From positions 1-64,000 of the forward strand of contig JANQPF010000017.1 of NCBI GenBank assembly GCA_028285415.1: 64,000 nt of DNA, written 5' to 3'. Source of the DNA: Pseudomonadales bacterium (lineage in GTDB: Bacteria > Pseudomonadota > Gammaproteobacteria > Pseudomonadales > Azotimanducaceae). Positions 47,289-63,537 of the stretch are shown here, piece by piece. Within the stretch, counting starts at the first letter, position 1. Every line of letters begins with the position of its first letter. The notes beneath the pieces are model-generated. The model had not been told where the DNA came from. It made no database searches and saw only the letters and a list, made by a program, of their open reading frames with translations. The translations under genes and the position numbers were made by a program.

Positions 47289-47640
47289 TGTCGTCCGCGC
47301 CTTGAGGCGCGGACTTACCGAGTTTTGCGCTTTGCGCAAAACGTCGCTCGGGTCAACGGACGGTGTTCTGGGTTCTAGATGGGGGAGGTTCGAGGTCAGT
47401 CCCTCTGAGTTCACCATGTCGGTCAGATCGACTGGATTCCACTGTGGTTCCAGGTGAGACCGGTTCGAGATTTGTCCTTCCAGGTCCACCATGTCGTCCG
47501 CGCCTTGAGGCGCCGACTTACCGAGTTTTGCCGCAGGCGGCAAGACGGCGCTCAGATCGATGGAGGGTGCACCGGGTTCCAGTTGATTTGGGAATTCACC
47601 ACCGGTCTTTCCGGCGGCGGCAAAATTCCGCTTGTTTTTC
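47284..47640. repeat. Degenerate tandem repeats with tRNA-like 3' ends
   Basis: The motif CACCATGTCG, which at 47284 is the real tRNA 3' end plus flank, recurs at 47412 and 47487. Each copy is preceded by a GGTTCGAG T-loop-like box. The flank CGTCCGCGCCTTGAGGCGC followed by GACTTACCGAGTTTTGC occurs at 47291 and again at 47495. A further unit (CTCAGATCGATGGA ... GGTTCCAG) is present three times with changes. The region carries no supported gene and separates the core operon from the glycan cluster. Confidence 0.65.
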
Positions 47641-47677
47641 ATCTAACTTCCTCAGCGCTTCGGGTACACTGCCGCCT

Positions 47678-48868
47678 ATGCAGCAGGCAGCGGCCAATGA
47701 TGGATTCCGGTTTGGCGACCGCATTCAGTGGATGGCGGTGCTCATTGTGCTGTGTTTTGTATCCGTTCTTTTGTTACGCAGCCAGAGTGCCGCAAGCTAC
47801 CCGACCTATGCGCTGAGCCTACTGATGCTGGCGACGTTTCCGCAATGGCGGGATGCGTTGCAGCTACCGCTTCTGCGTTGGATTTGCGCCCTGCTCATCT
47901 GGCTGTGTGTGAGCACCGCCTGGTCGGATCCGTTTGATCTCCGCAAAGCCTTGTCTATCTGGTCCCGTTCTCTCCTCGTATTCTTCTTTGTCGTAGCGTT
48001 TGCCGAGTGCCAATTGCGTGGGCAGCTGCAGCGCTGGATGGTTGTGGCTTTGACGGTAGTCGGGGGCGTCGTGGTGCTCGTAGCGATTGTGAACTTCTAC
48101 GTCACCGACCCGGCAGATGGACGGCTCAATGGACTGGGGCAGCTGGACACTCATGTCATCGCGGCACTGGTTTACGGCGTGGTCCTGCTTTTCATGCTGC
48201 GTACGCTGTTCGTGTTCGATTCCTGGTCTATTCGGGCCGGGGCGTTGCTTGTTGCCTGCCTCGCGACGTTTGCAGTGTTCATGTCAGACTCGCGCAACGC
48301 CTGGGTCAGCGTCCTGATGGGGGTTTGCTCTTATCTCCTGGCCTACAAGTGCCGCGATTGGCGGCAGTTTCTCGTGACCGTTGCCAGCATGGGCACCCTA
48401 CTCTTGAGTGTCGTGGTCGTATTGGCGGTCAACGAAGAGACTCGCGAACTCGTTCTACCACGCGGCGACAGCTACCGTCTCGCGATCTGGGGCGAAACCA
48501 TACAGCGGATTCTGGCCGGTGACGGTTTGCTGATCGGACTCGGAATACTCACGAGTGACGATGTCACAGTCGGCGGAATCGTGTTCCCCCATGCACACAA
48601 TATCTACCTGTCATTGCTCTACAAGGGAGGGCTGGTGGCGGTAGGGCTGTATGCTGCGGTATTGATCAGTACGTTTGCATTGTTGTTTACTCATTTCGAG
48701 AGAGAAGATGCAAAACTCGGAATCAGCATTCTCGTAATGGCGGTATTTGCCCACCTGCTTGATGGTCATGAGCTTGTCGACAAGGTGGGAGATACTTGGT
48801 TTCTGGTCTGGATGCCCGTTGGACTTGCGCTTGGCCTGGGCTGGATGCCCGGGTCCTATCGGCGCTGA
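47678..48868 (+). CDS. O-antigen ligase/polymerase family membrane protein
   Basis: A 396-residue protein with about ten membrane helices and a large periplasmic loop. The C-terminal third has the family signature FPHAHNIYLSLLYKGGLVAVGLY; an Arg-containing SDSRNAWVSVLMG segment lies mid-protein. WaaL-type ligases join O-antigen to lipid A-core; Wzy polymerases look similar. Because the cluster exports by an ABC transporter, a ligase is more likely than a polymerase. ATG at 47678 is used; the frame is open upstream through the repeat region, but that part is not protein-like. It converges on the next gene with a 13-base overlap. Confidence 0.82.
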   Translation: MQQAAANDGFRFGDRIQWMAVLIVLCFVSVLLLRSQSAASYPTYALSLLMLATFPQWRDALQLPLLRWICALLIWLCVSTAWSDPFDLRKALSIWSRSLLVFFFVVAFAECQLRGQLQRWMVVALTVVGGVVVLVAIVNFYVTDPADGRLNGLGQLDTHVIAALVYGVVLLFMLRTLFVFDSWSIRAGALLVACLATFAVFMSDSRNAWVSVLMGVCSYLLAYKCRDWRQFLVTVASMGTLLLSVVVVLAVNEETRELVLPRGDSYRLAIWGETIQRILAGDGLLIGLGILTSDDVTVGGIVFPHAHNIYLSLLYKGGLVAVGLYAAVLISTFALLFTHFEREDAKLGISILVMAVFAHLLDGHELVDKVGDTWFLVWMPVGLALGLGWMPGSYRR

Positions 48869-50298: not shown

Positions 50299-51417
50299 AT
50301 GGGCCAGAAGACAGCACTCATCACAGGTATCACAGGGCAGGATGGCGCCTATCTGGCGGAATTTCTGCTCGAAAAAGATTATGTCGTTCACGGCATCAAG
50401 CGGCGATCGTCGTTGTTCAACACGGAACGAATTGATCATCTGTATCAGGATCCCCACGCCGATGACCCCAGGCTCATCCTGCACTATGGAGACCTGACTG
50501 ACGCGAGCAACCTCACTCGAATCGTGCAGGAATCACAACCCGATGAGATCTACAATCTGGGTGCCCAGAGTCATGTTGCCGTGTCATTTGAATCCCCCGA
50601 ATACACGGCTCAGGTCGATGCGCTCGGTGCCCTGCGCCTGTTGGAGACGATTCGAATACTTGGCCTGGAGAAATCGACCCGGTTTTATCAGGCCTCCACC
50701 TCCGAGCTCTACGGTCAGGTAATAGAAACGCCGCAGAACGAACAGACGCCGTTCAACCCGCGCTCACCCTACGCGGTCGCGAAGCTCTACGCCTACTGGA
50801 TTACGATAAATTATCGTGAGGCCCATAACATTTACGCTTGTAACGGCATTCTGTTCAACCATGAATCCCCGATGCGCGGAGAAACGTTTGTTACTAGAAA
50901 AATCACCCGAGGGCTCAGTCGCGTCAGTCTGGGAACTCAGGATTGCCTCTATCTGGGAAATCTCGACAGCCTTCGCGATTGGGGACACGCCCGCGATTTC
51001 GTAGAAGCACAGTGGCTGATGCTTCAGCAGAGTGAGCCTCGGGACTATGTCGTCGCGACCGGGCAGCAACGTAGCGTTAGAGAGTTTGTCAACCTAGCGG
51101 CGGAAGAGTTGGGCATGAAAATAGCCTGGGAGGGGTCGGACGATCAAGAGGTTGGCCGGGTAACAGATGTATGGGACGATCAAGCGAAGGTCAGTGCGGG
51201 GGATGTTATCGTTCGTATTGACCCGCGCTACTTCCGTCCGACCGAGGTTGGGAGTTTGCTGGGAGATGCATCAAGGGCCAGAGACGAGCTCGGCTGGGCG
51301 CCCAAAAGCAGCTTTGCCGAGCTTGTGAAAGAAATGATTGCGTTCGATCTCGAAATCGCCAGAAGGGATGCCCTGGTGACGGAAGCAGGTTTCAGAGCGT
51401 ACAGCCTCAACGATTGA
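50299..51417 (+). CDS. gmd: GDP-mannose 4,6-dehydratase
   Basis: A 372-residue short-chain dehydrogenase/reductase with the NADP motif [17 protein letters not shown], the [15 protein letters not shown] loop, the catalytic TSELYG and [10 protein letters not shown] (Tyr-x3-Lys) and [16 protein letters not shown]. It converts GDP-mannose to GDP-4-keto-6-deoxymannose, the branch point for fucose, rhamnose and perosamine. It is followed after 13 bases by fcl, so the product here is GDP-L-fucose. Confidence 0.96.
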
Positions 51418-51430
51418 CGGTAGCGGGAAC

Positions 51431-52429
51431 ATGCCTGAAACACGCGTTTTGATCGCCGGCAGCGCGGGAATGGTCGGATCTGCAGTTCAGCAACGATTGC
51501 AGAAGGAAGATCGCTTCGAGGTCCTGACGGCTGACCGCGTAGACGTCGATATGCGACATCAGGCTGCAGTCCGGGAGTTTCTGCAGGATGTGCGTGCAGA
51601 CTGGATGGTAATCGCGGCTGCGAAAGTTGGCGGCATTCATGCGAACGTTACCTATCCGGCGGATTTCATTTACGACAACCTGATGATTGAAGCGAACCTG
51701 ATCAAAGGTGCGTTTGATACTGGATTGAAGCAGGTCGTTTTTCTCGGCAGTTCATGCATATATCCAAGGAATGCCAGTCAACCCATCGTCGAATCCGAAC
51801 TTTTGAACGGTGCCCTGGAACCGTCAAATGATGCCTATGCCGTTGCAAAAATCGCGGGCATCAAACTTTGCGAAGCCTTCAACCGTCAGCATGAGACAGA
51901 CTTTCGCAGCCTGATGCCTACAAATTTGTACGGCCGAAACGACAACTTTCATTCAGAGGATTCACACGTTGTTCCCGCGCTCATCAGACGCATGCATGAG
52001 GCCAAACTTCGTAACTCGCCCGAGGTTCTGGTCTGGGGTTCGGGAAAGCCTCTCCGGGAATTCCTGTATGTAGATGATCTAGCGGACGCCGTCGCGTTCG
52101 TGCTCGCCATGTCCCGGCAACAGTACTGGAGTTACGTTGACCCTCATCTGTCGCACGTAAACGTCGGCACCGGCGTTGAGGTTTCTATCCGAGAACTCGC
52201 CGAAACCATTGGTGACGTGGTTGGCTTTGATGGTCGCCTGGTGTTTGATGAGGACAAACCGGATGGCATGCCAAGAAAGCTTCTGGATACGGAAAAACTG
52301 CGAACAATGGGGTGGACACATTCCACAGCTTTGATCGAAGGTCTCTCGCAAACGTACGAATGGTTCCTCGAAGCAGGCAATGAAGCACGCGCCGGGCGTT
52401 CGGAACCACCACGCCACCTGTCGACTTGA
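51431..52429 (+). CDS. fcl: GDP-L-fucose synthase
   Basis: A 332-residue epimerase/reductase (MPETRVLIAGSAGMVGSAVQQRL, FLGSSCIYPRNASQPIVES, DAYAVAKIAGIKLCEAFNRQ, LMPTNLYGRNDNFH). It acts on the Gmd product to give GDP-L-fucose. With manC upstream the window holds the last three enzymes of the pathway; a phosphomannomutase is not in the window. Confidence 0.96.
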   Translation: MPETRVLIAGSAGMVGSAVQQRLQKEDRFEVLTADRVDVDMRHQAAVREFLQDVRADWMVIAAAKVGGIHANVTYPADFIYDNLMIEANLIKGAFDTGLKQVVFLGSSCIYPRNASQPIVESELLNGALEPSNDAYAVAKIAGIKLCEAFNRQHETDFRSLMPTNLYGRNDNFHSEDSHVVPALIRRMHEAKLRNSPEVLVWGSGKPLREFLYVDDLADAVAFVLAMSRQQYWSYVDPHLSHVNVGTGVEVSIRELAETIGDVVGFDGRLVFDEDKPDGMPRKLLDTEKLRTMGWTHSTALIEGLSQTYEWFLEAGNEARAGRSEPPRHLST

Positions 52430-52646: not shown

Positions 52647-54632
52647 ATGAACACTTATCGCCCAGAGATAGATGGTTTACGGGCCATTGCCGTTGTTAGC
52701 GTCATTCTTTACCACGCCAAGCTCAGCATTTTTGATGTCATTTGGTTTGAAGGTGGGTACCTTGGGGTCGATGTATTTTTTGTGATCAGCGGATACTTGA
52801 TCACCAAAATCCTGGTCTCTGAGCTGGACGATCAGGGCTACCTCAACTTTGCGAACTTTTACCAGCGTCGGGCAAAACGTATCTTGCCCATGTTGCTGAC
52901 GATGATGCTGGTCAGCTTTCCTTTTGCCTGGGCGCTGCTGTTGCCAACTGACCTTGTTGAATACGCACAAAGTGGGTTGTCGGCGATATTCTTTGGCTCA
53001 AATTTCTTTTTCTACTTTGCAACCACCGAATACGGGGCTGTAAGTTCGCTGCTGAAACCGTTCCTGCATACCTGGAGTCTTGGTATCGAGGAACAGTTTT
53101 ACCTGGTCTTTCCGGTGATTCTGATGCTGGTTTACCGATACGCCCGAGCGCATCTCCTGGCTGTGCTGGGTTTTCTTCTGGTGACCAGCCTGCTCCTATC
53201 TCAAAGTATGGAGAGCCGGAACGCAGACTTGAACTTTTATCTACCATTCTCCAGGTTCTGGGAACTCCTTGCGGGATCTCTGTTGGCGGTAGTAGGACTG
53301 AGATATGGCCACTTGAAACACCCCTTGGCGACCAACTTGTTGCCGTTGGTTGGTTTGTTCCTGGTGGGTTACTCGATTACCGTTTTTGACGGCCAGACAC
53401 CACACCCCGGGCTCATCACTCTTCTGCCAATTCTAGGCGTGTCATTGATAATAGCTTTCTCAACCACCCATGACCTGACAGGCAGGTTGCTGAGCACCCG
53501 GCCCATGGTTGGATTGGGGCTCATCAGCTACTCGGCTTATCTATGGCATTTCCCGTTGTTTGCGTTCTGCAGGATTTATGATCCTCACGCATCCGAACTG
53601 GACAAATTGTGGTGGATTGTTGCGACCCTGGTGTTGTCCACTGCTTCGTACTATCTGATCGAGAAACCGTTCCGAAGAAAGCTGCCGATTCGATATGCAG
53701 CAGCATCATTCATCATGGTTGTGGCGTCGGCAGTTGTGGCTGTGAACGTTGCGGTCATTGTTAACGATGGTTTCAAAGAACGGTACCCGTCGGTTGATAA
53801 CTACGAACTCGATAATCAAGCGCTGCGGAAACAGCGCGGAGAATTGTCGAACCAACTCTTCCTAGACCCGACAAGTCACTACCCAAACGCTGATGGGAGC
53901 AACATTCTGGTGGTTGGCAATTCCCACGGTGAACAGCTGGCTATGGTCATGCGTCATACCGATGCCATCATGGGACAGTTTCAAGTAGGTTGGCTCCGTT
54001 ATCGAAATCTGGCCTCAACCAATGGTTATATGCAGTTGTCTTGTTTTGATCATACGGTAACCGACATCACCCAAATGGATGAGCGCTTTTTTACCTCAGA
54101 TCTCTACCAGGGGGCACATCTGGTGGTCATTGCAACTCGCTACAACACGATGACATCAAGAACAAAAATGTTGTGTGAGTCAAAGGTCAAACGCACGGTG
54201 GGTAGCGATCTAGTCGGCACCGCAAATCTTATCAAGAGGGTGCTGGCAGATGGTAAACGCGTGGCCGTTGTGGGCAATTCCGTCGAGTTTGAAACTTCAG
54301 GTAAGCCGATTTCTGATGAGCTGTTGAATCAGTATGACGTACTGGATGTGGGTGAGATAAATCGCGCGCACTACTCCTATCGCAAAGAAGACGTGTTTGA
54401 ACTAAACAAGCAAGTGAGAGAAATTGCCGAGGCCGCCAACGTACCATACTGGAGTTTGACGCAGACATTGTGCGACGTAGAAGGCGAGGTTTGTTTTGGT
54501 CTGGACGACGACGGCAACAAGTTGTTTTATGACTATGGCCATTTTACCGTACCCGGTATTAAGTTTTATGCCGGCCGACTTCACGAGCAGGGCTTTTCGG
54601 CGTGGTTGGAACGAGCGTTTCATGGGAGGTAG
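52647..54632 (+). CDS. OafA/YrhL-type membrane O-acyltransferase with SGNH domain
   Basis: A 661-residue two-part protein. Residues 1-380 are ten or more helices of the acyltransferase-3 family, starting RPEIDGLRAIAVVSVILYHA with the family histidine and including FFVISGYLITKIL and SYSAYLWHFPL. The C-terminal part is an SGNH-like domain: serine motif VVGNSHGEQ and His block DYGHFTVPGIK. Such proteins move acetyl groups across the inner membrane onto sugars of surface glycans. The gene is visibly more A/T-rich than the core, consistent with recent transfer. Confidence 0.9.
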   Translation: MNTYRPEIDGLRAIAVVSVILYHAKLSIFDVIWFEGGYLGVDVFFVISGYLITKILVSELDDQGYLNFANFYQRRAKRILPMLLTMMLVSFPFAWALLLPTDLVEYAQSGLSAIFFGSNFFFYFATTEYGAVSSLLKPFLHTWSLGIEEQFYLVFPVILMLVYRYARAHLLAVLGFLLVTSLLLSQSMESRNADLNFYLPFSRFWELLAGSLLAVVGLRYGHLKHPLATNLLPLVGLFLVGYSITVFDGQTPHPGLITLLPILGVSLIIAFSTTHDLTGRLLSTRPMVGLGLISYSAYLWHFPLFAFCRIYDPHASELDKLWWIVATLVLSTASYYLIEKPFRRKLPIRYAAASFIMVVASAVVAVNVAVIVNDGFKERYPSVDNYELDNQALRKQRGELSNQLFLDPTSHYPNADGSNILVVGNSHGEQLAMVMRHTDAIMGQFQVGWLRYRNLASTNGYMQLSCFDHTVTDITQMDERFFTSDLYQGAHLVVIATRYNTMTSRTKMLCESKVKRTVGSDLVGTANLIKRVLADGKRVAVVGNSVEFETSGKPISDELLNQYDVLDVGEINRAHYSYRKEDVFELNKQVREIAEAANVPYWSLTQTLCDVEGEVCFGLDDDGNKLFYDYGHFTVPGIKFYAGRLHEQGFSAWLERAFHGR

Positions 54633-55054: not shown

Positions 55055-55171
55055 ATGAACGCACCTAGCCGTGTGGAAGCATCAAATGATCAGGATCGAT
55101 TCAGGGAAGCTGCAGACCCGCTGAACGGGTTCATGGTAGCCCTCATGGCAAGAGATCGGGGGAAATGTTGA
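55055..55171 (+). CDS. Possible small ORF coupled to the methyltransferase gene
   Basis: A 38-codon frame starting MNAPSRVEASNDQDRF has AGGA seven bases before its ATG. Its TGA overlaps the next ATG (ATGTTGA at 55165). The peptide is polar with a hydrophobic FMVALMA segment near the end. It may be a leader that couples translation or a remnant; no family is recognised. Confidence 0.3.
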   Translation: MNAPSRVEASNDQDRFREAADPLNGFMVALMARDRGKC

Positions 55172-55992
55172 AAGTTCGTGCCTCACCGCCCGGCCACCGT
55201 AATCGGCATGCGGACCTGGCTGGGAAGCTCCCAGAAGAGTGCGTCGTCTGTACTTCGAAATACGTCAGCTATGTTAGGGATGTCCCTACGCTTTCTGCCG
55301 GTGTAGAAATACCTTTGTTCTACTGCATGGAGTGTGAATCGTTTACTAATCCATCCGGCTTTCTACCGACAGCCGAAACCGATGCAACGGAACTGGCGTT
55401 TCATATCAAAGTGCATGAGCGCAATGTGCTGCGTTCCCGTGCCTTGTTGAGAGAGATGAAGAAACAATATCCGGATCTTCAGCGCATAGTGGAAATTGGT
55501 TGCGGTACGGGATCGTTCGTTCGGGAAGCGCAGGACATGGGCTTTGATGCTGTTGGTTATGACATAAACGAGCAAGCGGTTGCATATGGCGTCGAACAAT
55601 ATGGCGCGAACATATCTGCCAGCTGGTGGAATTCGGATCTGCAGACTGAGCCGTTCGACATGTTGTTCTGCATCATGGTGTTGGAGCATCTGGAACAGCC
55701 GCGTGACCTCTTTACTGAAATGGTTGTTGCTGCGAGACGTTTTGGCGCTGGAGTTTTCGTTGCCGTCCCGGCGCTCAACCGCAATCGATGGAAGTACATA
55801 CTAGATCCGGATCCGACGCGGCCCGGAACACCGTTCTTCAACAACCGTGCGCACGTTACCCACTTTTCCAACATCGGCTTGCACAAGCTGGCAGAACAGT
55901 TTGAAGCGGGAATCAGGGAAGTCCGCTCCAACGTATCTGAAAATGAGATTGGGTGGGGTGGCTTCGTTTACGAGTTTCAATCGCCGGGATGA
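55165..55992 (+). CDS. Class I SAM-dependent methyltransferase with N-terminal zinc-type cysteines
   Basis: A 275-residue protein. An N-terminal CVVC ... CMEC arrangement (residues about 27-60) resembles the zinc ribbon of sugar methyltransferases. The Rossmann core has IVEIGCGTGSFVREAQDMGFDAVGYDIN (SAM motif I and acidic end of strand two) and MLFCIMVLEHLEQP. It is likely to methylate a sugar of the exported glycan. The ribosome site is weak; the start may be coupled to the short frame ending at 55171. Confidence 0.8.
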   Translation: MLKVRASPPGHRNRHADLAGKLPEECVVCTSKYVSYVRDVPTLSAGVEIPLFYCMECESFTNPSGFLPTAETDATELAFHIKVHERNVLRSRALLREMKKQYPDLQRIVEIGCGTGSFVREAQDMGFDAVGYDINEQAVAYGVEQYGANISASWWNSDLQTEPFDMLFCIMVLEHLEQPRDLFTEMVVAARRFGAGVFVAVPALNRNRWKYILDPDPTRPGTPFFNNRAHVTHFSNIGLHKLAEQFEAGIREVRSNVSENEIGWGGFVYEFQSPG

Positions 55993-56107: not shown

Positions 56108-57376
56108 ATGGAGTTGAGTCTAGAGACAGGTTTGATGCTGCTGCTCATTCTGGTGAGCGGCGTTGCTGTCGCCAGCTATGCGCGATACCGAATGGATGTG
56201 CGGGTCAGACTGACGAGTATGCAGTTGGGGGATTCCTTAGATGATCTCAATGCCCAGCTTCTGCGTGATCGCGAGTCCGGTGAAGAAACAGCACGGCAGC
56301 TCCGCACGGGCTTACAGAGTCTGCAGGAACTGAATGATCGGATTGGGCGTCTCCGGGATGAACAGGCGGAAAACCTGGCGCTTCTTCGGAACGAACAGCA
56401 GCTTCTGCACGAACAGTCGAATGATTTAAGGAAGGAACAGCAGCAGCTTTTGCACGAACAGGTGAGCCAGGTCCGAAACGAACAGCAGCAGCTTTTACAC
56501 GATCAGGTGAGTCAGATCCGGGACGAAGCTAAGGTGTTTCAAAGCGACATTCGTGAGCTGACGGAAAACCGCGCGCAAGTTACCGAGGCTGAGCTGCTGG
56601 ACCTGCAAACGCGACTGGATACGAGAGAACAAAACTCGGCGGAAGTCTGGCGTCAACTCGACGTGGACCGGGTTGCAGATGTGGAACAGATTGCGGTGAT
56701 TGCCGGTGTCATGGCTGCGGATGGTCTGGCGGCAATTGAGCGCAACGAAATGGGTAAAGTTCCGGAGCCAATTCACGGCCATTCGCTGATGTTGTACCGG
56801 GTGCTGGCGGATTTCGGAGCTGACCGGATACCAGAGGTTGAGCGTTACCATCTCCTGGAGATCGGCACGACACGTGAAAAGTGGTGGGGACAGATGTCCA
56901 CATCTCGGCTCGCCTTGTTGTGCCGTGCGCTGGGGTTGAAGATGATATCTGTGGATATTGATGAGGAATCCAGTGCCAGCGGACGCGAGTCAACTAAGAT
57001 GTATGGCACAGCCGCGGATATTCATACCGAAGCTGGAGAAGTTTTCCTGCGAAACTGGGAAGGTGCGTTACCCCCTTATATATACGTCGATGCGTACGAC
57101 TACTATCACGAAGATCACTCAGATCATCGCATGCAACGTTATGAGACACTTCAGGGCGAGAAGATAAACGATCCTGCCTGCTGGAAAATGCACTTGGATT
57201 GCGCAGAACAGTTTGTTGCCAAGTGCCCCCCGGGCGGTATCGTCGTCTTCGACGACGTTTTTTTTGAGGACGGGGCGTGGGCCGGGAAAGGCAAAGACGC
57301 CGTTCCTTTCATGTTGGATGGGGGATTTCATATCGTAGGTCAAACGCCGCGAACCCTGATTCTCTGCAAAGACTGA
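56108..57376 (+). CDS. Membrane-anchored coiled-coil protein with C-terminal methyltransferase-like domain
   Basis: A 422-residue protein in three parts. Residues 8-27 are one membrane helix. Residues about 45-190 are a long charged coiled coil that includes near-exact 15-residue repeats: LRKEQQQLLHEQVSQ (107-121) and VRNEQQQLLHDQVSQ (122-136), preceded by a 14-residue version at 93-106. Residues 248-420 form a Rossmann domain of methyltransferase type (HLLEIGTTREKWWGQ, MISVDIDEES, GGIVVFDDVFFEDG). It lies 22 bases upstream of wzm. By analogy with WbdD, which pairs a methyltransferase with a coiled-coil ruler to set O-antigen length, it may be the chain terminator. That is inference; a kinase domain is absent. 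Confidence 0.75.
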   Translation: MELSLETGLMLLLILVSGVAVASYARYRMDVRVRLTSMQLGDSLDDLNAQLLRDRESGEETARQLRTGLQSLQELNDRIGRLRDEQAENLALLRNEQQLLHEQSNDLRKEQQQLLHEQVSQVRNEQQQLLHDQVSQIRDEAKVFQSDIRELTENRAQVTEAELLDLQTRLDTREQNSAEVWRQLDVDRVADVEQIAVIAGVMAADGLAAIERNEMGKVPEPIHGHSLMLYRVLADFGADRIPEVERYHLLEIGTTREKWWGQMSTSRLALLCRALGLKMISVDIDEESSASGRESTKMYGTAADIHTEAGEVFLRNWEGALPPYIYVDAYDYYHEDHSDHRMQRYETLQGEKINDPACWKMHLDCAEQFVAKCPPGGIVVFDDVFFEDGAWAGKGKDAVPFMLDGGFHIVGQTPRTLILCKD

Positions 57377-57398
57377 TCATTGAGTCCGAAACGGGATC

Positions 57399-58151
57399 GT
57401 GAACCGTAAATTCGTCGTCTTCTTATACAGGCACTTTTTGCACTCGCAAAGGCAGGAGGGTGGGCTCTGGTGGTTCTGGATGGTAGCGCTGCCCATTGTC
57501 CCGCTTGCGGCGTACATGTGCCTCGGTTTTCTGAAGATATTGCCCCATCAGGAGGGTATTCCCCGCCACCTCTACATCGTGATCGGCGTTACAGGCTGGC
57601 TGCTCTTTACGGATGCAATTCTCCAACCAGGCAACAGCATCGGCCGCTTTAAGGACTATTTCGTCCGGGACGAGGTTTCCATCAGCGGTTTGCTGGGTGC
57701 GTGGCTGCCGGAACGTTCCGTGGCGCTCGGTTTGCAGATCTTGTTCTGCCTCAGTCTTGTGGCGTGGGATTTCCCGCTGTTGGCGATCCAGGTACTGAGT
57801 TTCGTTGCTTTGCTGCTGTTGGGTTTCGCCGTGTTTTACTCGTTTGGGCAGGTGGCAGCGATACTGGGGCTGGTTTCACCCAGCCTGGCGAACCTGTTGA
57901 CCGTCAGCATTCGGTTTTTGATCTTTCTCAGCGGGGTCGTGTTCCCGTTGCCTGCTGCAGAAGCACTCGATCCCATCCGGGTGATCAACCCGTTCTACGT
58001 GTTCATCGACGCGTCGCGTAATGCACTCATCGGTATGCCGTTCGATTTGGTGCCGCTGGCGGTCTGGTGCGGCGTGGGGCTGACCGTGACATTGTTCCTA
58101 CGCTGGCGCCTGGGCAGACTCACGCCGTATCTGAGGAACTATCTGTTTTGA
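57399..58151 (+). CDS. wzm: ABC polysaccharide exporter, permease Wzm
   Basis: A 250-residue inner-membrane protein with six helices, of the ABC-2/TagG family (NRKFVVFLYRHFLHSQRQEGGLW, IVIGVTGWLLFTDAILQPGNSI, FKDYFVRDEVSISGLLGAW, INPFYVFIDASRNALIG). It moves lipid-linked glycan to the periplasm. GTG start. Its stop overlaps the TTG start of wzt (TTGA), the tight coupling usual for these pairs. Confidence 0.88.
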   Translation: MNRKFVVFLYRHFLHSQRQEGGLWWFWMVALPIVPLAAYMCLGFLKILPHQEGIPRHLYIVIGVTGWLLFTDAILQPGNSIGRFKDYFVRDEVSISGLLGAWLPERSVALGLQILFCLSLVAWDFPLLAIQVLSFVALLLLGFAVFYSFGQVAAILGLVSPSLANLLTVSIRFLIFLSGVVFPLPAAEALDPIRVINPFYVFIDASRNALIGMPFDLVPLAVWCGVGLTVTLFLRWRLGRLTPYLRNYLF

Positions 58152-59395
58152 CTTCCCTGCGTGCTCAGAATCTGGTGAAACGCTATGCGATATCCAGCGC
58201 CAGCCGTCGAGATGTGCTGAGACGGGAAATTCTGCGGAACTGGTTCGGCCTACGCGTGGCCAACAAGCAGGTCCGTTACCGCGAAGCGGTACGGGGGGTG
58301 ACGTTTGAAGTCGCCAAGGGCGAGTCGCTCGCTTTCATCGGCAGAAACGGCGCCGGTAAATCGACTATCCTGAAGCTGGTCATGGGTATTCTTACCGCAG
58401 ATGAGGGCCGCCTGGAAGTTTCGGGTGCAGTAGGAGGGCTGATCGAACTGGGCGCGGGTTTGGATGTCTCGAAAAGCGGTGAGGAGAACGTCATCGACCG
58501 GGCCGGCCTGCTTGGGATCGACGATGACCGGCTTCAGGAGTTTCTTGGTTCGATCGAGGATTTTGCTGAGCTTGGAGACCAGTTCTACGACCCTGTCGGC
58601 ACCTACTCGAGTGGCATGAAGGCAAGGCTTGGGTTTGCGATCGCGGTAATGCTGCCTTTCGATATCATGATCTGCGACGAGGCGCTCAGCGTGGGTGACG
58701 CCAGATTTGCCGCGAAGTGCCTGGCCAAGGTCAACGAGCTCAAAAAGGATCGTATCTTTCTGTTTGTGTCTCACTCCATGGCAATGGTGCAACGGTTCTG
58801 CGACAGAGGGATTGTGTTGGACAAAGGCGTAGCTGTTTTCTCCGGCGACGTCACCGAGGCGGTAGCGTACTACGAGGATAACATCCTCAATCGCGGCGAC
58901 GACACACCGAAGATAATAGACTTTGATCGAGCGTATGAATCGGAGCCAGCCCCTGTTGCTTCACGGTCCTTTCTTGAGCCGCTGTTGTTCAACACGGAAA
59001 AAGTAACCGAATGGCACGCCGAGGTTGGTGTCGACCGCGGCATTGACATTGCTTGGTCGATCAATCTAACAAGCGTACGCAGCAGCCCGGACGTTCAGTA
59101 TCGCCTGGGCTTTCCGGTGTTTGGCGGCGATGGGACCATGCAGTTTGGTTGTGCGCATGAAAACGTTCGGCAAACGGATACGGAAGTCCTATCGGGGAAA
59201 CTCGTGATTCCACGACACGGTCTTCACCCGGGTGTTTACTATGTCGTTATCTCTCTCTTTGAGGGGATGGAGCCGATCCTGCGCCAACTCGTTAAGGAAA
59301 TCAGAATCAGTTCGACCGGTATGCCTTACTTCGGCTCTTACTCTGTGGACCACAGCTGGATTCTCGGTAACGGGGAAGGCAAGCAAGATGCCTGA
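58148..59395 (+). CDS. wzt: ABC polysaccharide exporter, ATPase Wzt with C-terminal glycan-recognition domain
   Basis: A 415-residue protein. Residues 1-250 are the ABC ATPase: Walker A GRNGAGKST, signature TYSSGMKARLG, Walker B FDIMICDEAL and switch SHSMAMV. Residues about 260-415 form a beta-rich domain (VEVGVD-like strands, IDIAWSINLTS, LHPGVYYVVISLF) of the Wzt C-terminal type. In E. coli O8/O9a this domain binds the capped end of the glycan. TTG at 58148 is chosen for the overlap with wzm; earlier in-frame codons lie inside wzm. Confidence 0.88.
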   Translation: MTSLRAQNLVKRYAISSASRRDVLRREILRNWFGLRVANKQVRYREAVRGVTFEVAKGESLAFIGRNGAGKSTILKLVMGILTADEGRLEVSGAVGGLIELGAGLDVSKSGEENVIDRAGLLGIDDDRLQEFLGSIEDFAELGDQFYDPVGTYSSGMKARLGFAIAVMLPFDIMICDEALSVGDARFAAKCLAKVNELKKDRIFLFVSHSMAMVQRFCDRGIVLDKGVAVFSGDVTEAVAYYEDNILNRGDDTPKIIDFDRAYESEPAPVASRSFLEPLLFNTEKVTEWHAEVGVDRGIDIAWSINLTSVRSSPDVQYRLGFPVFGGDGTMQFGCAHENVRQTDTEVLSGKLVIPRHGLHPGVYYVVISLFEGMEPILRQLVKEIRISSTGMPYFGSYSVDHSWILGNGEGKQDA

Positions 59396-60200
59396 CACGT
59401 CTTCTGTCTTGTTAGATATTGGCGGCCTGCAGCTGGAAGTCCTCGATAATCTCAAAGACCGCGAATGGTACGAGCGGCGTGAAGCATTCGAGGAGGTAAA
59501 CTCGGTCTGGTATCGGCTGCTCGAACGCATTGGTGTGCGCACATACATCGACGTGGGTGCCAACTGCGGGCTCACCAGTCTTCTCGCTCTGCGGACGATC
59601 GCTGATTTGCATGTTTATGCCTTCGAGGCGGACAGCCGTCTGATTCCCCTCATCAGTCGCAATCTCAATAGGTATGGATTCGAAGGGTATCGGATCACGC
59701 ACGCGGTTGTTGGCGATGCAGATGGCAACTCCTCTTTTTCGTTGAATCCAGTATCCACCTTGGACAATAGGGTCAACAAGGAGGGTTGGGCGCAGGAAAG
59801 GGTTCCGATGGGCGCTCTGGATACATTGATCGACCCGACGGCGATCGAGTGGCCGCTGTACGCGAAACTCGATACACAGGGATTCGAACTGCACGTGTTC
59901 AAGGGGATGGAGAACCTGCTGGCCGCAGGTTCGGACTGGATAGTGAAAACCGAATTTGCCCCGATGTGGCTTGAATCGCAGAACACTTCGCCGGCCGAAT
60001 TGTTGCAGTATTTGCTGGAGCGATACCGGGTTTACGAAGCGCCCAACCGTGTTCAGTTCACTGCGGACGGCATCGAAGATTACTTGCAGCGGCCGCTTAT
60101 GCCGGAGCTCGTTCCCACTTTCATCGATCATGTAAGAAGCCTGAACACCGCGGGTCGGGGCTGGGTGGATTTGCTGGTGGTTCCGAATTGTTGGCGATGA
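59388..60200 (+). CDS. FkbM-family methyltransferase
   Basis: A 270-residue methyltransferase with the FkbM pattern: YIDVGANCGLTSLLALR (SAM motif I), YAFEADSRLIPLISRNL, HAVVGDADGNSSF, and LYAKLDTQGFELHVFKGMENLL. These enzymes O-methylate sugars and polyketides. ATG at 59388 has GAAGG upstream and overlaps the wzt end by eight bases, so its dosage is tied to the exporter. The frame is open further up within wzt but starts here. Confidence 0.87.
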   Translation: MPDTSSVLLDIGGLQLEVLDNLKDREWYERREAFEEVNSVWYRLLERIGVRTYIDVGANCGLTSLLALRTIADLHVYAFEADSRLIPLISRNLNRYGFEGYRITHAVVGDADGNSSFSLNPVSTLDNRVNKEGWAQERVPMGALDTLIDPTAIEWPLYAKLDTQGFELHVFKGMENLLAAGSDWIVKTEFAPMWLESQNTSPAELLQYLLERYRVYEAPNRVQFTADGIEDYLQRPLMPELVPTFIDHVRSLNTAGRGWVDLLVVPNCWR

Positions 60201-60240: not shown

Positions 60241-61107
60241 ATGAGGTTGTCGATAGTCGTACCCAGTTTTAATCAGGGTCAGTTCATTGCCGCAACTCTG
60301 GATTCGCTTGTTGGGGAAGCCAGTGAAGGCACACTCGAGGTGATCGTCCAGGATGCGGGTAGCACCGACGGCACGCAGGAAATACTCGAGCGCTATAAGC
60401 GCCACCCGTTCATGCACATTTTTACGGAACAGGACGAGGGTCAGAGCGATGCGCTCAACAGAGGCTTCGAAAGGTGCACCGGCGATGTGCTGGGTTGGCT
60501 GAATTCCGACGATGTTTTGTGCGCGGGCGCCGTGGCGCGGGTGCTCAACGCTTTTAGTGCTGATCCCGAGGTTCAGCTGATATATGGTCGCGCCTATTTT
60601 GTCGACGAGTGCAGCGAGCGACTGGGTCTGTTTCCAACGGGAAGATTGACATCAATGAGCAACAGACACCGGTGCCCGATCTCACAACCTTCGACGTTCT
60701 TCAGGCGCGAGTGTTACGAAAGATGCGGCCCGATTAATCGCACTCGCAAATACTGTATGGACTATGAGCTCTGGACCAAGGTAGTCCTGCGCGAGGAAAA
60801 GGTTGCGTATCTGCCCGCCGTTCTGTCGTGCACGCGAATTCATGGAGATACGAAAACCCAAAACGGTGGACTGGCGTTCATCGAAGAGATCATCGAAATG
60901 CAGTCGGCTTTGTACGGCAGCTGTTCTCCGGTCTGGGTCATGTACAGTCACGCACGCAGCGGCTCGATCGCGCGCATTCCCGGGAAACTGGTCAGGTTTT
61001 CTCTCGCCGCGCTGAAGACCGTTCTGCGGCACCCATCGCTGCTCTGGTTCGGGGCCTATTCGCTGTGCGAGCGTGTGTTCGCCTCGGTACGCGAGAAACT
61101 GGCTTAA
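60241..61107 (+). CDS. Glycosyltransferase, GT2 family
   Basis: A 288-residue GT-A enzyme (LSIVVPSFNQGQFIAATLDSL, VIVQDAGSTDGTQEIL, metal motif WLNSDDVLCAG, SQPSTFFRRECYERCG, DYELWTKV). It is of the type that adds sugars to surface glycans using UDP- or GDP-sugars. Its stop TAA overlaps the next ATG (TAATG). Confidence 0.9.
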   Translation: MRLSIVVPSFNQGQFIAATLDSLVGEASEGTLEVIVQDAGSTDGTQEILERYKRHPFMHIFTEQDEGQSDALNRGFERCTGDVLGWLNSDDVLCAGAVARVLNAFSADPEVQLIYGRAYFVDECSERLGLFPTGRLTSMSNRHRCPISQPSTFFRRECYERCGPINRTRKYCMDYELWTKVVLREEKVAYLPAVLSCTRIHGDTKTQNGGLAFIEEIIEMQSALYGSCSPVWVMYSHARSGSIARIPGKLVRFSLAALKTVLRHPSLLWFGAYSLCERVFASVREKLA

Positions 61108-62417
61108 TGTCAGAAGCTACTAACATAGCCGCGCAACAGACTCGTCAGGCGATACTGCTGGGGAACGGACCGTCTCTGGCACGTATTGATCTAGCCCGCG
61201 ACCTGAGTGGTCTTGACAGCTTTGGCATGAACGCGGCGTATCGCTTCTGGCGCGAAATCGACTGGTACCCGACCTATTACGCCTGTCTGGATGTGGTGGT
61301 TGGGGAAAGTCATCTCGAGGCGATCGGCGATCTTGTTGCGGACAGCGAGCGCAATGGGATCCAACGGTTTCTATTGCGCGAGAACATCTACCGCCAGATT
61401 GCAGAGCATGAGCGTACTGAATGCTATGAAGATCTCGTGCAGTCTGGTGCGCTTCCACGGCTCGCGGATGTGACTACAGGATCACACACGCTGCTCTGGG
61501 CTCGGCACCTGGGGTATCAAACACTATTGCTGGCCGGCGTGGATCTGGACTACGTTGAGCAGGTTGAGGGAGCCGTTCGAGAGAACGGGGTGTTGCGGAT
61601 CGAAACTGACGACGGCAATCCGAACTATTTTTTTGAGGGTTATCAACAACCTGGTGATCGATACAATATTCCTAACCCCAGGCCGGGCCTCCATCTCTCT
61701 TCGTGGGCCAATGTTGCAACACGATTGGTATACCCATCGATCGTCGTGAACCTGAACGACCAGTCTGCGCTGAACGTCTTCGTCAAGAACCGTTGCGACA
61801 ACATGACGGTGCCTGGAGCGATACTGCAGCAAACGTCGCGTGCAGCGAGTGGCCGGGCACGCCGACTGCGCGGCCTGACCTGTGCAACCGATGCGTTCAA
61901 CGCACTCAGCAACGAGCTCGAGGCTCTTGTGCAGGCCAATCCGTGGAACAGAGCTTTGATTTACACTCGTGAAAACGAATTTGTGCCTGAACGACACTGG
62001 GCACTCTTCTACGAGCAGGGTCGGGAACGTTTTCGTCTGCACGCGCCAAGGGACCGGCTTCAAAAGACCGAGGACGTGAAGTTCGTCATGTCCAGCATCG
62101 ACGGATTATTCTTCGACACCCTTCTGGGTCATATCGAGAGTATTGCGCGAAAGTCCGCGAATCGAAAACTGACTGCTTACATGAGGCAGAGTTGTGCCGC
62201 TATTGGTGCGCGGCTCCCTGAAAGAATTCGCAAAATCGACACGGCAGACAACATGCGTGATTTCATCGATTGTTACTTCTCGATCAGAGGGCTCATCATC
62301 ATCCTATGCGAGATACTCCTCGCGAGTACCATCGCGGTCCCCACACAGCACCCGCTGCAATTTGCCAGTGCCTTACTGGTGCTCTTCGTGATGGTGCCTC
62401 TGGTTCGCAGACGTTGA
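61107..62417 (+). CDS. GNGPSL-motif protein, DUF115/GT42-like, membrane-anchored
   Basis: A 436-residue protein beginning with AILLGNGPSLARIDLARDL (motif residues 19-24) and FGMNAAYRFW. The Gly-Asn-Gly-Pro-Ser motif occurs in CstII-type sialyltransferases (GT42) and in DUF115/MptE-like proteins. The sequence then differs from both groups; TGSHTLLWARHLGYQTLLLAGVD is reminiscent of the DUF115 core. Two hydrophobic helices end the protein (GLIIILCEILLASTIAV, FASALLVLFVMVPLV). A glycosyltransferase working at the membrane is likely; sialic-acid synthesis genes are not in the window. Confidence 0.65.
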   Translation: MSEATNIAAQQTRQAILLGNGPSLARIDLARDLSGLDSFGMNAAYRFWREIDWYPTYYACLDVVVGESHLEAIGDLVADSERNGIQRFLLRENIYRQIAEHERTECYEDLVQSGALPRLADVTTGSHTLLWARHLGYQTLLLAGVDLDYVEQVEGAVRENGVLRIETDDGNPNYFFEGYQQPGDRYNIPNPRPGLHLSSWANVATRLVYPSIVVNLNDQSALNVFVKNRCDNMTVPGAILQQTSRAASGRARRLRGLTCATDAFNALSNELEALVQANPWNRALIYTRENEFVPERHWALFYEQGRERFRLHAPRDRLQKTEDVKFVMSSIDGLFFDTLLGHIESIARKSANRKLTAYMRQSCAAIGARLPERIRKIDTADNMRDFIDCYFSIRGLIIILCEILLASTIAVPTQHPLQFASALLVLFVMVPLVRRR

Positions 62418-62433: not shown

Positions 62434-63537
62434 TTGAAAGTCCTGATTCTGTCCGTCACGGCGAAAGGGTCTGAGACGGCCACGGGTCAGCTCATGGATT
62501 TTCTATTCGGCCAGCTGTCGGAGGTGACGACGATGTCGGTTCATACAGGTTTTGCGGCCGATCCACCGGCGAGTCCGGATTTGTGGTTACGTCCCCGCAA
62601 TCTTCTGTCCTCCATCAGGATGATGTTTCGGTTCGATCCTGATGTCGTTTATGTGCGCCCGACTCTGCGTCCGTTACTGTTCAGCTTGTTCACGCTGGTA
62701 ATCGTGCTGCTGCTGCGACGGCCGGTCATCGTGCACATCATGGATCATGAAGAGGGCGTGACTGTAGGCGTTGGAGGGTTTGTCAACCGCTTCTATGCAA
62801 GATATCTACGCTGGTTGGTCAATAGAGCGCGGAGTGCTTTCACGATCTCACCCGGTATGCAGGCCGACTACGAAGCACGTTTTGGGCGCAGCATGCCGCC
62901 GGTGGCTAACGCGGTTACGGTGATGGATTCGACCGATGTGGTGCCACTTCACAGGGAAGATGACCGGGAGGGTCTGTTGCTCGGCTACTTCGGCTCTCTC
63001 GATGCCAAAATGAATCGCGATTCTGTGCGGATGATTGCTGGAGCCGTTGAGCGGTTGAACGACCGGGGATTTGCAGTTCGCCTCAACATATTTACGCGAC
63101 CGCTGTACTTGGAATACGCGCACCGAAGTCTCGACACCGCCCACGTCCATACCCGACCGTATTTGCCGGTGGAACAATATCGGGAACAGCTCAACGCCTG
63201 TGACGCATTGCTGATCGCCTACAATTTCGATGCGGAATCCGTGGCCTACTGTCGTTTTTCGATCGCAAACAAACTCGCAGACTATCTGAGTGCTGGCAAA
63301 GAGGTCATTGTCGTTGGCCCGTTGGAAGTTGAAACTGTTGCTCTGTGTCAAAGCTTCTCGATAGGGCAAACGATCACGGATTCGGCTGACCTGGCAGAGG
63401 AGCTGGGCAGCGCGTTGCGGCACCTAGGCCAGGCGGAATTCGCCCCGGCGCGTGCGGCCGCGATGTATGCCCAGGCCCTTCGTTCGGAGCATGGTCTGAA
63501 CGCTTGGCGAAGTGCGTTTGAAACTGTTTCAGATTGA
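62434..63537 (+). CDS. Glycosyltransferase, GT4-like
   Basis: A 367-residue GT-B protein (MKVLILSVTAKGSETATGQLMDFL, DPDVVYVRPTLRPLLFSLF, FTISPGMQADYEARFG, LLGYFGSLDAKMNRDSVRMI, YCRFSIANKLADYLSAGKEVIVVGP). The donor-side Lys-x-x-Asp-Tyr element matches GT4 relatives. TTG start with GGAAGG seven bases upstream. It lies 16 bases after the preceding gene. Confidence 0.8.
   Translation: MKVLILSVTAKGSETATGQLMDFLFGQLSEVTTMSVHTGFAADPPASPDLWLRPRNLLSSIRMMFRFDPDVVYVRPTLRPLLFSLFTLVIVLLLRRPVIVHIMDHEEGVTVGVGGFVNRFYARYLRWLVNRARSAFTISPGMQADYEARFGRSMPPVANAVTVMDSTDVVPLHREDDREGLLLGYFGSLDAKMNRDSVRMIAGAVERLNDRGFAVRLNIFTRPLYLEYAHRSLDTAHVHTRPYLPVEQYREQLNACDALLIAYNFDAESVAYCRFSIANKLADYLSAGKEVIVVGPLEVETVALCQSFSIGQTITDSADLAEELGSALRHLGQAEFAPARAAAMYAQALRSEHGLNAWRSAFETVSD

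Follow-up and report, generated by a model that had tools for sequence, protein, structure and literature searches.

How bacteria end the growth of a surface glycan at a defined length has been worked out for a few enterobacterial systems. The known chain terminators are compared here from portions of four papers (PMC11231755, PMC3482155, PMC5082667, PMC12220298). In those portions, WbdD of Escherichia coli O9a and O8 carries a methyltransferase-fold domain on a long membrane-held coiled coil (~200 Å; PMC5082667) and works with an ABC exporter (PMC3482155, PMC5082667, PMC11231755); its catalytic part is N-terminal and its contact with the membrane and the polymerase is C-terminal, and all of the terminators characterised in the portion of PMC11231755 used here have the terminator at the N-terminus. 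The window (the whole stretch of 64,000 nucleotides that was analysed) encodes a 422-aa protein (56108..57376, on the + strand like all features of the window given below) that resembles WbdD in its methyltransferase-fold domain on a membrane-held coil of similar length and in its ABC exporter, but with the order reversed: membrane helix, coiled coil, methyltransferase-fold domain. No description of this layout was found in the open-licence literature searched.

The protein has a single hydrophobic segment by hydropathy, residues 3-23 (56114..56176), which is the one N-terminal membrane helix of the initial annotation. There is no lysine or arginine in the two residues before the helix and there are four in the 15 residues after it, so the positive-inside count predicts an N-out/C-in orientation with the C-terminal side in the cytoplasm. 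Residues 24-218 are proline-free, and the coiled coil is placed at about residues 30-189 (56195..56674) by periodicity and by an AlphaFold prediction of the full protein, which gave a single long helix (residues 5-153) and then another (residues 160-189) with moderate confidence in the coil (block means of 52-88 over residues 31-160, lower past residue 180). Its length is about 130-166 residues, or 19.5-25 nm at 0.15 nm per residue, for which the roughly 145 residues first proposed are a fair figure. In 56-residue windows, coiled-coil periodicity at p<=0.05 was found in 7 of 8 coil windows and, by the same test, in none of the 11 from the C-terminal domain. Over the entire 160-residue stretch at once, periodicity is not significant (p=0.78), which fits a period that shifts along the coil, and windowed tests with controls were used instead: the hydrophobic period is 3.43-3.58 for residues 30-127 and rises to 3.65-3.82 for residues 86-183. 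The latter values fit units of 15 residues (15/4 = 3.75), three of which are found at about residues 95-139 (56390..56524), where self-identity at an offset of 15 is 70% over 30 residues (maximum of 300 shuffles, 47%) and the DNA has a 45-bp tandem repeat of 2.1 copies with 87% matches. The 15-residue repeats that had been ascribed to the coil are thus confined to part of it. A co-polymerase of the Wzz/KpsE type was considered and rejected, as the coil is predicted by the positive-inside count to be cytoplasmic, not periplasmic, and an enzyme domain is present.

The C-terminal domain (56741..57376) has a class I SAM-methyltransferase fold, judging from a model built from six sequences (pLDDT 82.1, pTM 0.82). 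With this model, Foldseek retrieved 309 matches from the PDB at E<=0.001, the best at 8.9e-07, with TM values of about 0.4-0.6; most of the best 50 are named SAM-dependent methyltransferases, alongside a spermidine synthase (4yuv) and an unnamed chain of a mitoribosome (8pk0_x). The fold bears out the initial claim of a methyltransferase-like domain, but the sole enzyme family listed by Pfam, Methyltransf_24 (PF13578), scores 17.4 bits against a cut-off of 26.3, and the best of the domain's relatives, at 24.0 bits, is still below it. NCBIfam names no family for the domain, and neither the Pfam nor the NCBIfam list for the whole protein includes a kinase, as had been stated. A phmmer search against PDB chains, a set in which WbdD is presumably present, gave 0 matches at E up to 10 (no positive control was run), and a profile search against PDB sequences gave chance-level matches only (E 0.084 or worse). 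In PHROGs the domain matches one family of unknown function (phrog_24975, E 2.7e-09).

The motifs EIGTTRE, VDxD, DAxDxxHxxHS, CxMHxDC and FDD of the window domain are conserved in its family (the last as DD), together with GExF; TTRE stands in place of the usual glycine-rich loop, and seven bacterial and phage sequences share 38 invariant columns. By sequence search the family is rare. Among 58 relatives, 369 class genomes and 398 phylum genomes (overlapping sets), the domain was found in its own genome only, and it was absent from the phage records; relatives were found in one Deltaproteobacteria MAG, two Rhodobacterales plasmids and five viral contigs (the protein is identical in two of these contigs). 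The phage relatives are stand-alone proteins of 186-191 aa and those of L003-L005 have other architectures, so the domain would also work without a ruler. On the two plasmids, the protein adjoining the GTTRE-domain protein (L004 4760-6292, L005 5573-6748) has an FkbM-like N-terminal part, recognised by eye, and a C-terminal coiled coil, which is the usual WbdD-like polarity.

As initially noted, 22 bases (57377-57398) separate the gene from wzm, which encodes an ABC-2 permease (57399..58151; 24.9 bits in Pfam, just under the cut-off of 26.9) and is followed by wzt, encoding an ABC ATPase of 442 aa (58067..59395; Pfam, NCBIfam). The C-terminal extension of Wzt (58877..59395) is 28% identical to that of another genome of the genus (G018) and has no match in Pfam and no meaningful sequence match in the PDB. 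With wzm as bait, only G018 was found at E<=1e-5 among 58 relatives; 274 class genomes gave no match other than the own genome, and no plasmid matched. Downstream are genes for an FkbM-family methyltransferase (59388..60200; Pfam, NCBIfam), a GT2 glycosyltransferase (60241..61107), a GNGPSL (MptE-like, GT42-like) protein with a C-terminal membrane hairpin (61104..62417) and a GT4-type glycosyltransferase (62434..63537). Two of these orfs, listed as 59232-60200 and 60828-62417, overlap the preceding gene at their listed starts, and the ATG codons at 59388 and 61104 are likelier. Upstream are a separate methyltransferase (Methyltransf_23 in Pfam; 55165..55992), two genes that we take to be gmd- and fcl-like (50299..52429; homologs 74% and 62% identical in G018) and an O-antigen ligase (Wzy_C; 47363..48868). 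The large protein encoded at 52647-54632 has similarity in NCBIfam to the acetyltransferase SucT (106 bits against a cut-off of 1275) and may perhaps O-acetylate a glycan.

Relatives of the window domain are adjoined by a CTP-transferase gene of the CMP-sugar type (CTP_transf_3), which on the own contig lies beyond the window (C18:69673-70347) with genes for a 2-hydroxyacid dehydrogenase, a GT2 and an SDR. The cassette was examined in 11 locus sets, seven bacterial and four from phages; three of the bacterial sets (G018, G666, G817) carry the other methyltransferase subfamily described below. The CTP-transferase is present in all 11 (7/7 bacterial, 4/4 phage), the 2-hydroxyacid dehydrogenase in 7/7 bacterial and 1/4 phage sets, the cassette GT2 in 6/7 bacterial sets (the sequence of L005 is cut there) and 0/4 phage sets, and an HpcH-type aldolase in 4/4 phage and 0/7 bacterial sets. 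In the phages a small stand-alone methyltransferase-fold protein is encoded between the CTP-transferase gene and the aldolase. The marine viral contigs L006, L008, L009 and L012 carry the cassette CTP-transferase, the small GTTRE protein and the HpcH-type aldolase, and some of them also a GNGPSL protein and a 2-hydroxyacid dehydrogenase; this cassette perhaps makes sugars for phage glycans. Given the linkage of the C-terminal family to a CMP-sugar cassette, a CMP-derived acid is a likelier target than mannose. The GNGPSL module of one fusion protein (G025, below) matches the CST-I sialyltransferases at 29.5 bits (cut-off 25) with a best stretch of 30 residues, which hints that GNGPSL modules use the CMP-sugar; the GNGPSL protein of the window has no score for that family. 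A literature search on the cassette found nothing.

In a test set beforehand, the CTP-transferase gene was used as bait (E<=1e-20) in 40 genomes of the genus, and it matched in four: G000, G018 and the newly examined G025 and G026. In each of the four, a protein with a coil and a methyltransferase-type C-terminus is encoded near an ABC transporter, and in three a membrane part belongs to the same chain. The G025 protein (1454 aa) consists of a GT2 module, a stretch with no assigned family, a GNGPSL module, two membrane segments, a coil and a Methyltransf_24 domain. As in the window, its gene immediately precedes wzm and wzt, and a 228-aa orf takes the position of the FkbM gene. The G026 protein (1014 aa) has the coil and a methyltransferase-like end without a membrane segment, and its neighbours of 827 aa and 404 aa have two membrane segments each; its domain has neither the DGDH nor the FDD motif and reaches 13.8 bits with Methyltransf_24. 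Judging from the missing motifs, this coil protein (L037 7537-10581) is a possible dead terminator. In G005, G006, G030 and G031, no coil-methyltransferase protein was found in the stretch adjacent to the OmpA marker (8.7-19.9 kb each); G006 has wzm-wzt at the same site without that protein in the stretch examined. At the same genus locus in G030, an FkbM-like protein with a C-terminal coil (L022 11284-13077) adjoins gmd/fcl-like genes, and no wzm-wzt relative is among the orfs of those 19.9 kb.

Altogether, the combination of a coiled coil and a C-terminal domain of the methyltransferase type was found in five other genomes (G018, G025, G026, G666, G817). In four of them (all but G026) it belongs to one polypeptide of 1401-1691 aa in which glycosyltransferase-type modules are followed by membrane segments, the coil and the methyltransferase, and the reversed domain order first noticed in the window thus recurs. 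The G018 site is the same chromosomal site as the window, before OmpA-like and glyS genes; there, wzm, wzt and a small FkbM gene are accompanied by the gene for a 1691-aa fusion of GT2, GNGPSL, GT4 and FkbM modules, two membrane segments, a coil and Methyltransf_24. Its modules match the separate genes of the window at 37% (GT2, E 3e-34), 29% (GT4, E 2e-30), 27% (GNGPSL, E 0.003; the second GNGPSL protein of the contig, E 1e-23) and 28% (FkbM, E 0.022, with Pfam Methyltransf_21 in both), and the GNGPSL protein of the window is 49% identical to the module of the G025 fusion. When the G018 methyltransferase was the query, 1 of 398 phylum genomes matched, G666, where a 1401-aa fusion of the same order adjoins the cassette and an ABC exporter is 3.6 kb away. 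Among 101 genomes two matched, G666 itself and its relative G817, which has a version of the fusion of 1583 aa and no wzm-wzt relative in the 20 kb examined. The window protein has one membrane helix versus two in the fusions; the second segment of G666 and G817 has a hydropathy of 1.56 and 1.51, just below the threshold of 1.6. Periodicity at p<=0.05 was found in 43 of 60 coil windows of the six proteins versus 10 of 167 enzyme windows, the G018 coil being weakly periodic (2/6 windows). No plasmid was matched by the G018 or the G025 methyltransferase, and one match, a stand-alone Leisingera enzyme, was found with that of G666; a four-row profile matched 0 of 239 class genomes, a set flagged as having no positive genome.

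The methyltransferase of the window is of a different subfamily from that of the fusions, to judge from a BLAST E of 0.014 over 52 residues and a profile probability of 63% over 78 columns, and its coil does not convincingly resemble theirs (best E 0.16). Because neither domain nor coil is closely related, the parallel between window and fusions rests on layout, locus and neighbours. The fusions of G666 and G817 can be compared directly. Their N-terminal modules differ, their membrane parts are 86.4% identical and their methyltransferases 93.5% identical, both without gaps, and their coils are 72.8% identical, that of G817 carrying a single 57-residue insertion (about 8.5 nm). A difference in coil length between conserved ends is what one would expect of a ruler, here in a single pair; the two proteins offer a natural test of the idea. 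What has been observed is the layout, the fold, the linkage of the genes, the recurrence elsewhere and the variation of coil length between two close relatives.

The protein at 56108-57376, anchored in the membrane, is probably the terminator and ruler of the chains of an O-antigen-type glycan that an ABC system exports; catalysis, modification of the chain tip, control of length and identity of the sugar are what we infer. The N-terminal helix would fix the protein at the inner membrane, the site of the polymerising glycosyltransferases, and the cytoplasmic coil would keep the methyltransferase-type domain at a distance of about 20-25 nm, out of reach of any chain until it has grown far enough. 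Once at the enzyme, the tip would be modified, probably by methylation of a sugar acid from the linked CMP cassette, and the modified tip would stop growth before export by Wzm/Wzt. In the fusions, too, the polymerase modules lie on the same side of the coil as the membrane, which the ruler model requires. There is about an even chance that the window represents a minimal, split form of a reversed-layout terminator that uses a second methyltransferase subfamily. What the initial annotation observed is confirmed, and its interpretation as a glycan-length ruler is partly supported.

Fusion to glycosyltransferase-type modules would suit any enzyme of an assembly complex, and the other methyltransferases of the locus are plausible decorators; the protein might accordingly methylate sugars along the growing chain, with a coil that merely ties it to the glycosyltransferases and the exporter. 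We consider this rather unlikely, as a decorator has no need for a coil of 20-35 nm and the change of coil length between conserved ends in G666 and G817 is more natural for a spacer. The constant CTP-transferase neighbour in the bacterial and phage locus sets, and the small stand-alone phage proteins encoded beside it, bring to mind an enzyme that acts on the CMP-activated sugar or a precursor, as the phage relatives may, with incidental anchoring. Such an enzyme, if soluble, would need no membrane helix, long coil or fusion to polymerase modules, and we regard this explanation as improbable. Least probable is that a dead methyltransferase fold serves as a scaffold to organise the assembly complex: motifs are lost in G026 and the glycine-rich loop is replaced in the window family, but the invariance of 38 columns in seven bacterial and phage sequences fits an active enzyme.

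The reading as terminator and ruler can be set against the known systems. The spacer model is already established for WbdD, and the polarity of the chain is what differs here. In the portions of the papers cited above, WbdD of O9a also has a kinase, whereas the window protein has a predicted true membrane helix and no kinase was found in it; the phmmer search, against a PDB set that presumably includes WbdD, found no sequence relation of the window domain to the WbdD catalytic domain. The fusions are like WbbB of Klebsiella pneumoniae O12 and ORF6 of K. pneumoniae O7 in having polymerase modules, coil and terminator in one chain, but those two, as described in the portion of PMC11231755 used, have the terminator N-terminal and the glycosyltransferases C-terminal, and G018, G025, G666 and G817 have the opposite order of N-terminal glycosyltransferase-type modules, membrane hairpin, coil and C-terminal methyltransferase. 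ORF7 of K. pneumoniae O4 (GT137), set beside the window protein by its description in that portion, is a terminator that depends on a CMP-sugar, CMP-Kdo; it is a two-domain transferase with a C-terminal coil, and its model partly resembles methyltransferases (PMC11231755). With respect to Methyltransf_24, the fusion domains of G018, G025, G666 and G817 are above the cut-off (48-57 bits) and the window family, with motifs of its own, is below it. The initial proposal that the Wzt C-terminal domain reads the cap, as the cap-binding domain does in O8/O9a, is apparently not general: in the five transporters examined, the extension is present in the window (442 aa) and G018 (410 aa) and missing from G025 (288 aa), G026 (237 aa) and G666 (223 aa). 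Sequence features suggest that the 422-aa protein is a candidate coiled-coil chain terminator of reversed polarity with respect to WbdD, WbbB and O7 ORF6, and a membrane segment, a coil and a C-terminal methyltransferase in that order could mark other such systems. It shares with terminators of the WbdD/WbbB type an ABC glycan exporter encoded alongside and a long coil between the membrane/polymerase site and the enzyme, while their N-terminal terminator order is reversed in the window, G018, G025, G666 and G817; if the reversed layout is true, bacteria would have come to the spacer principle through more than one architecture.
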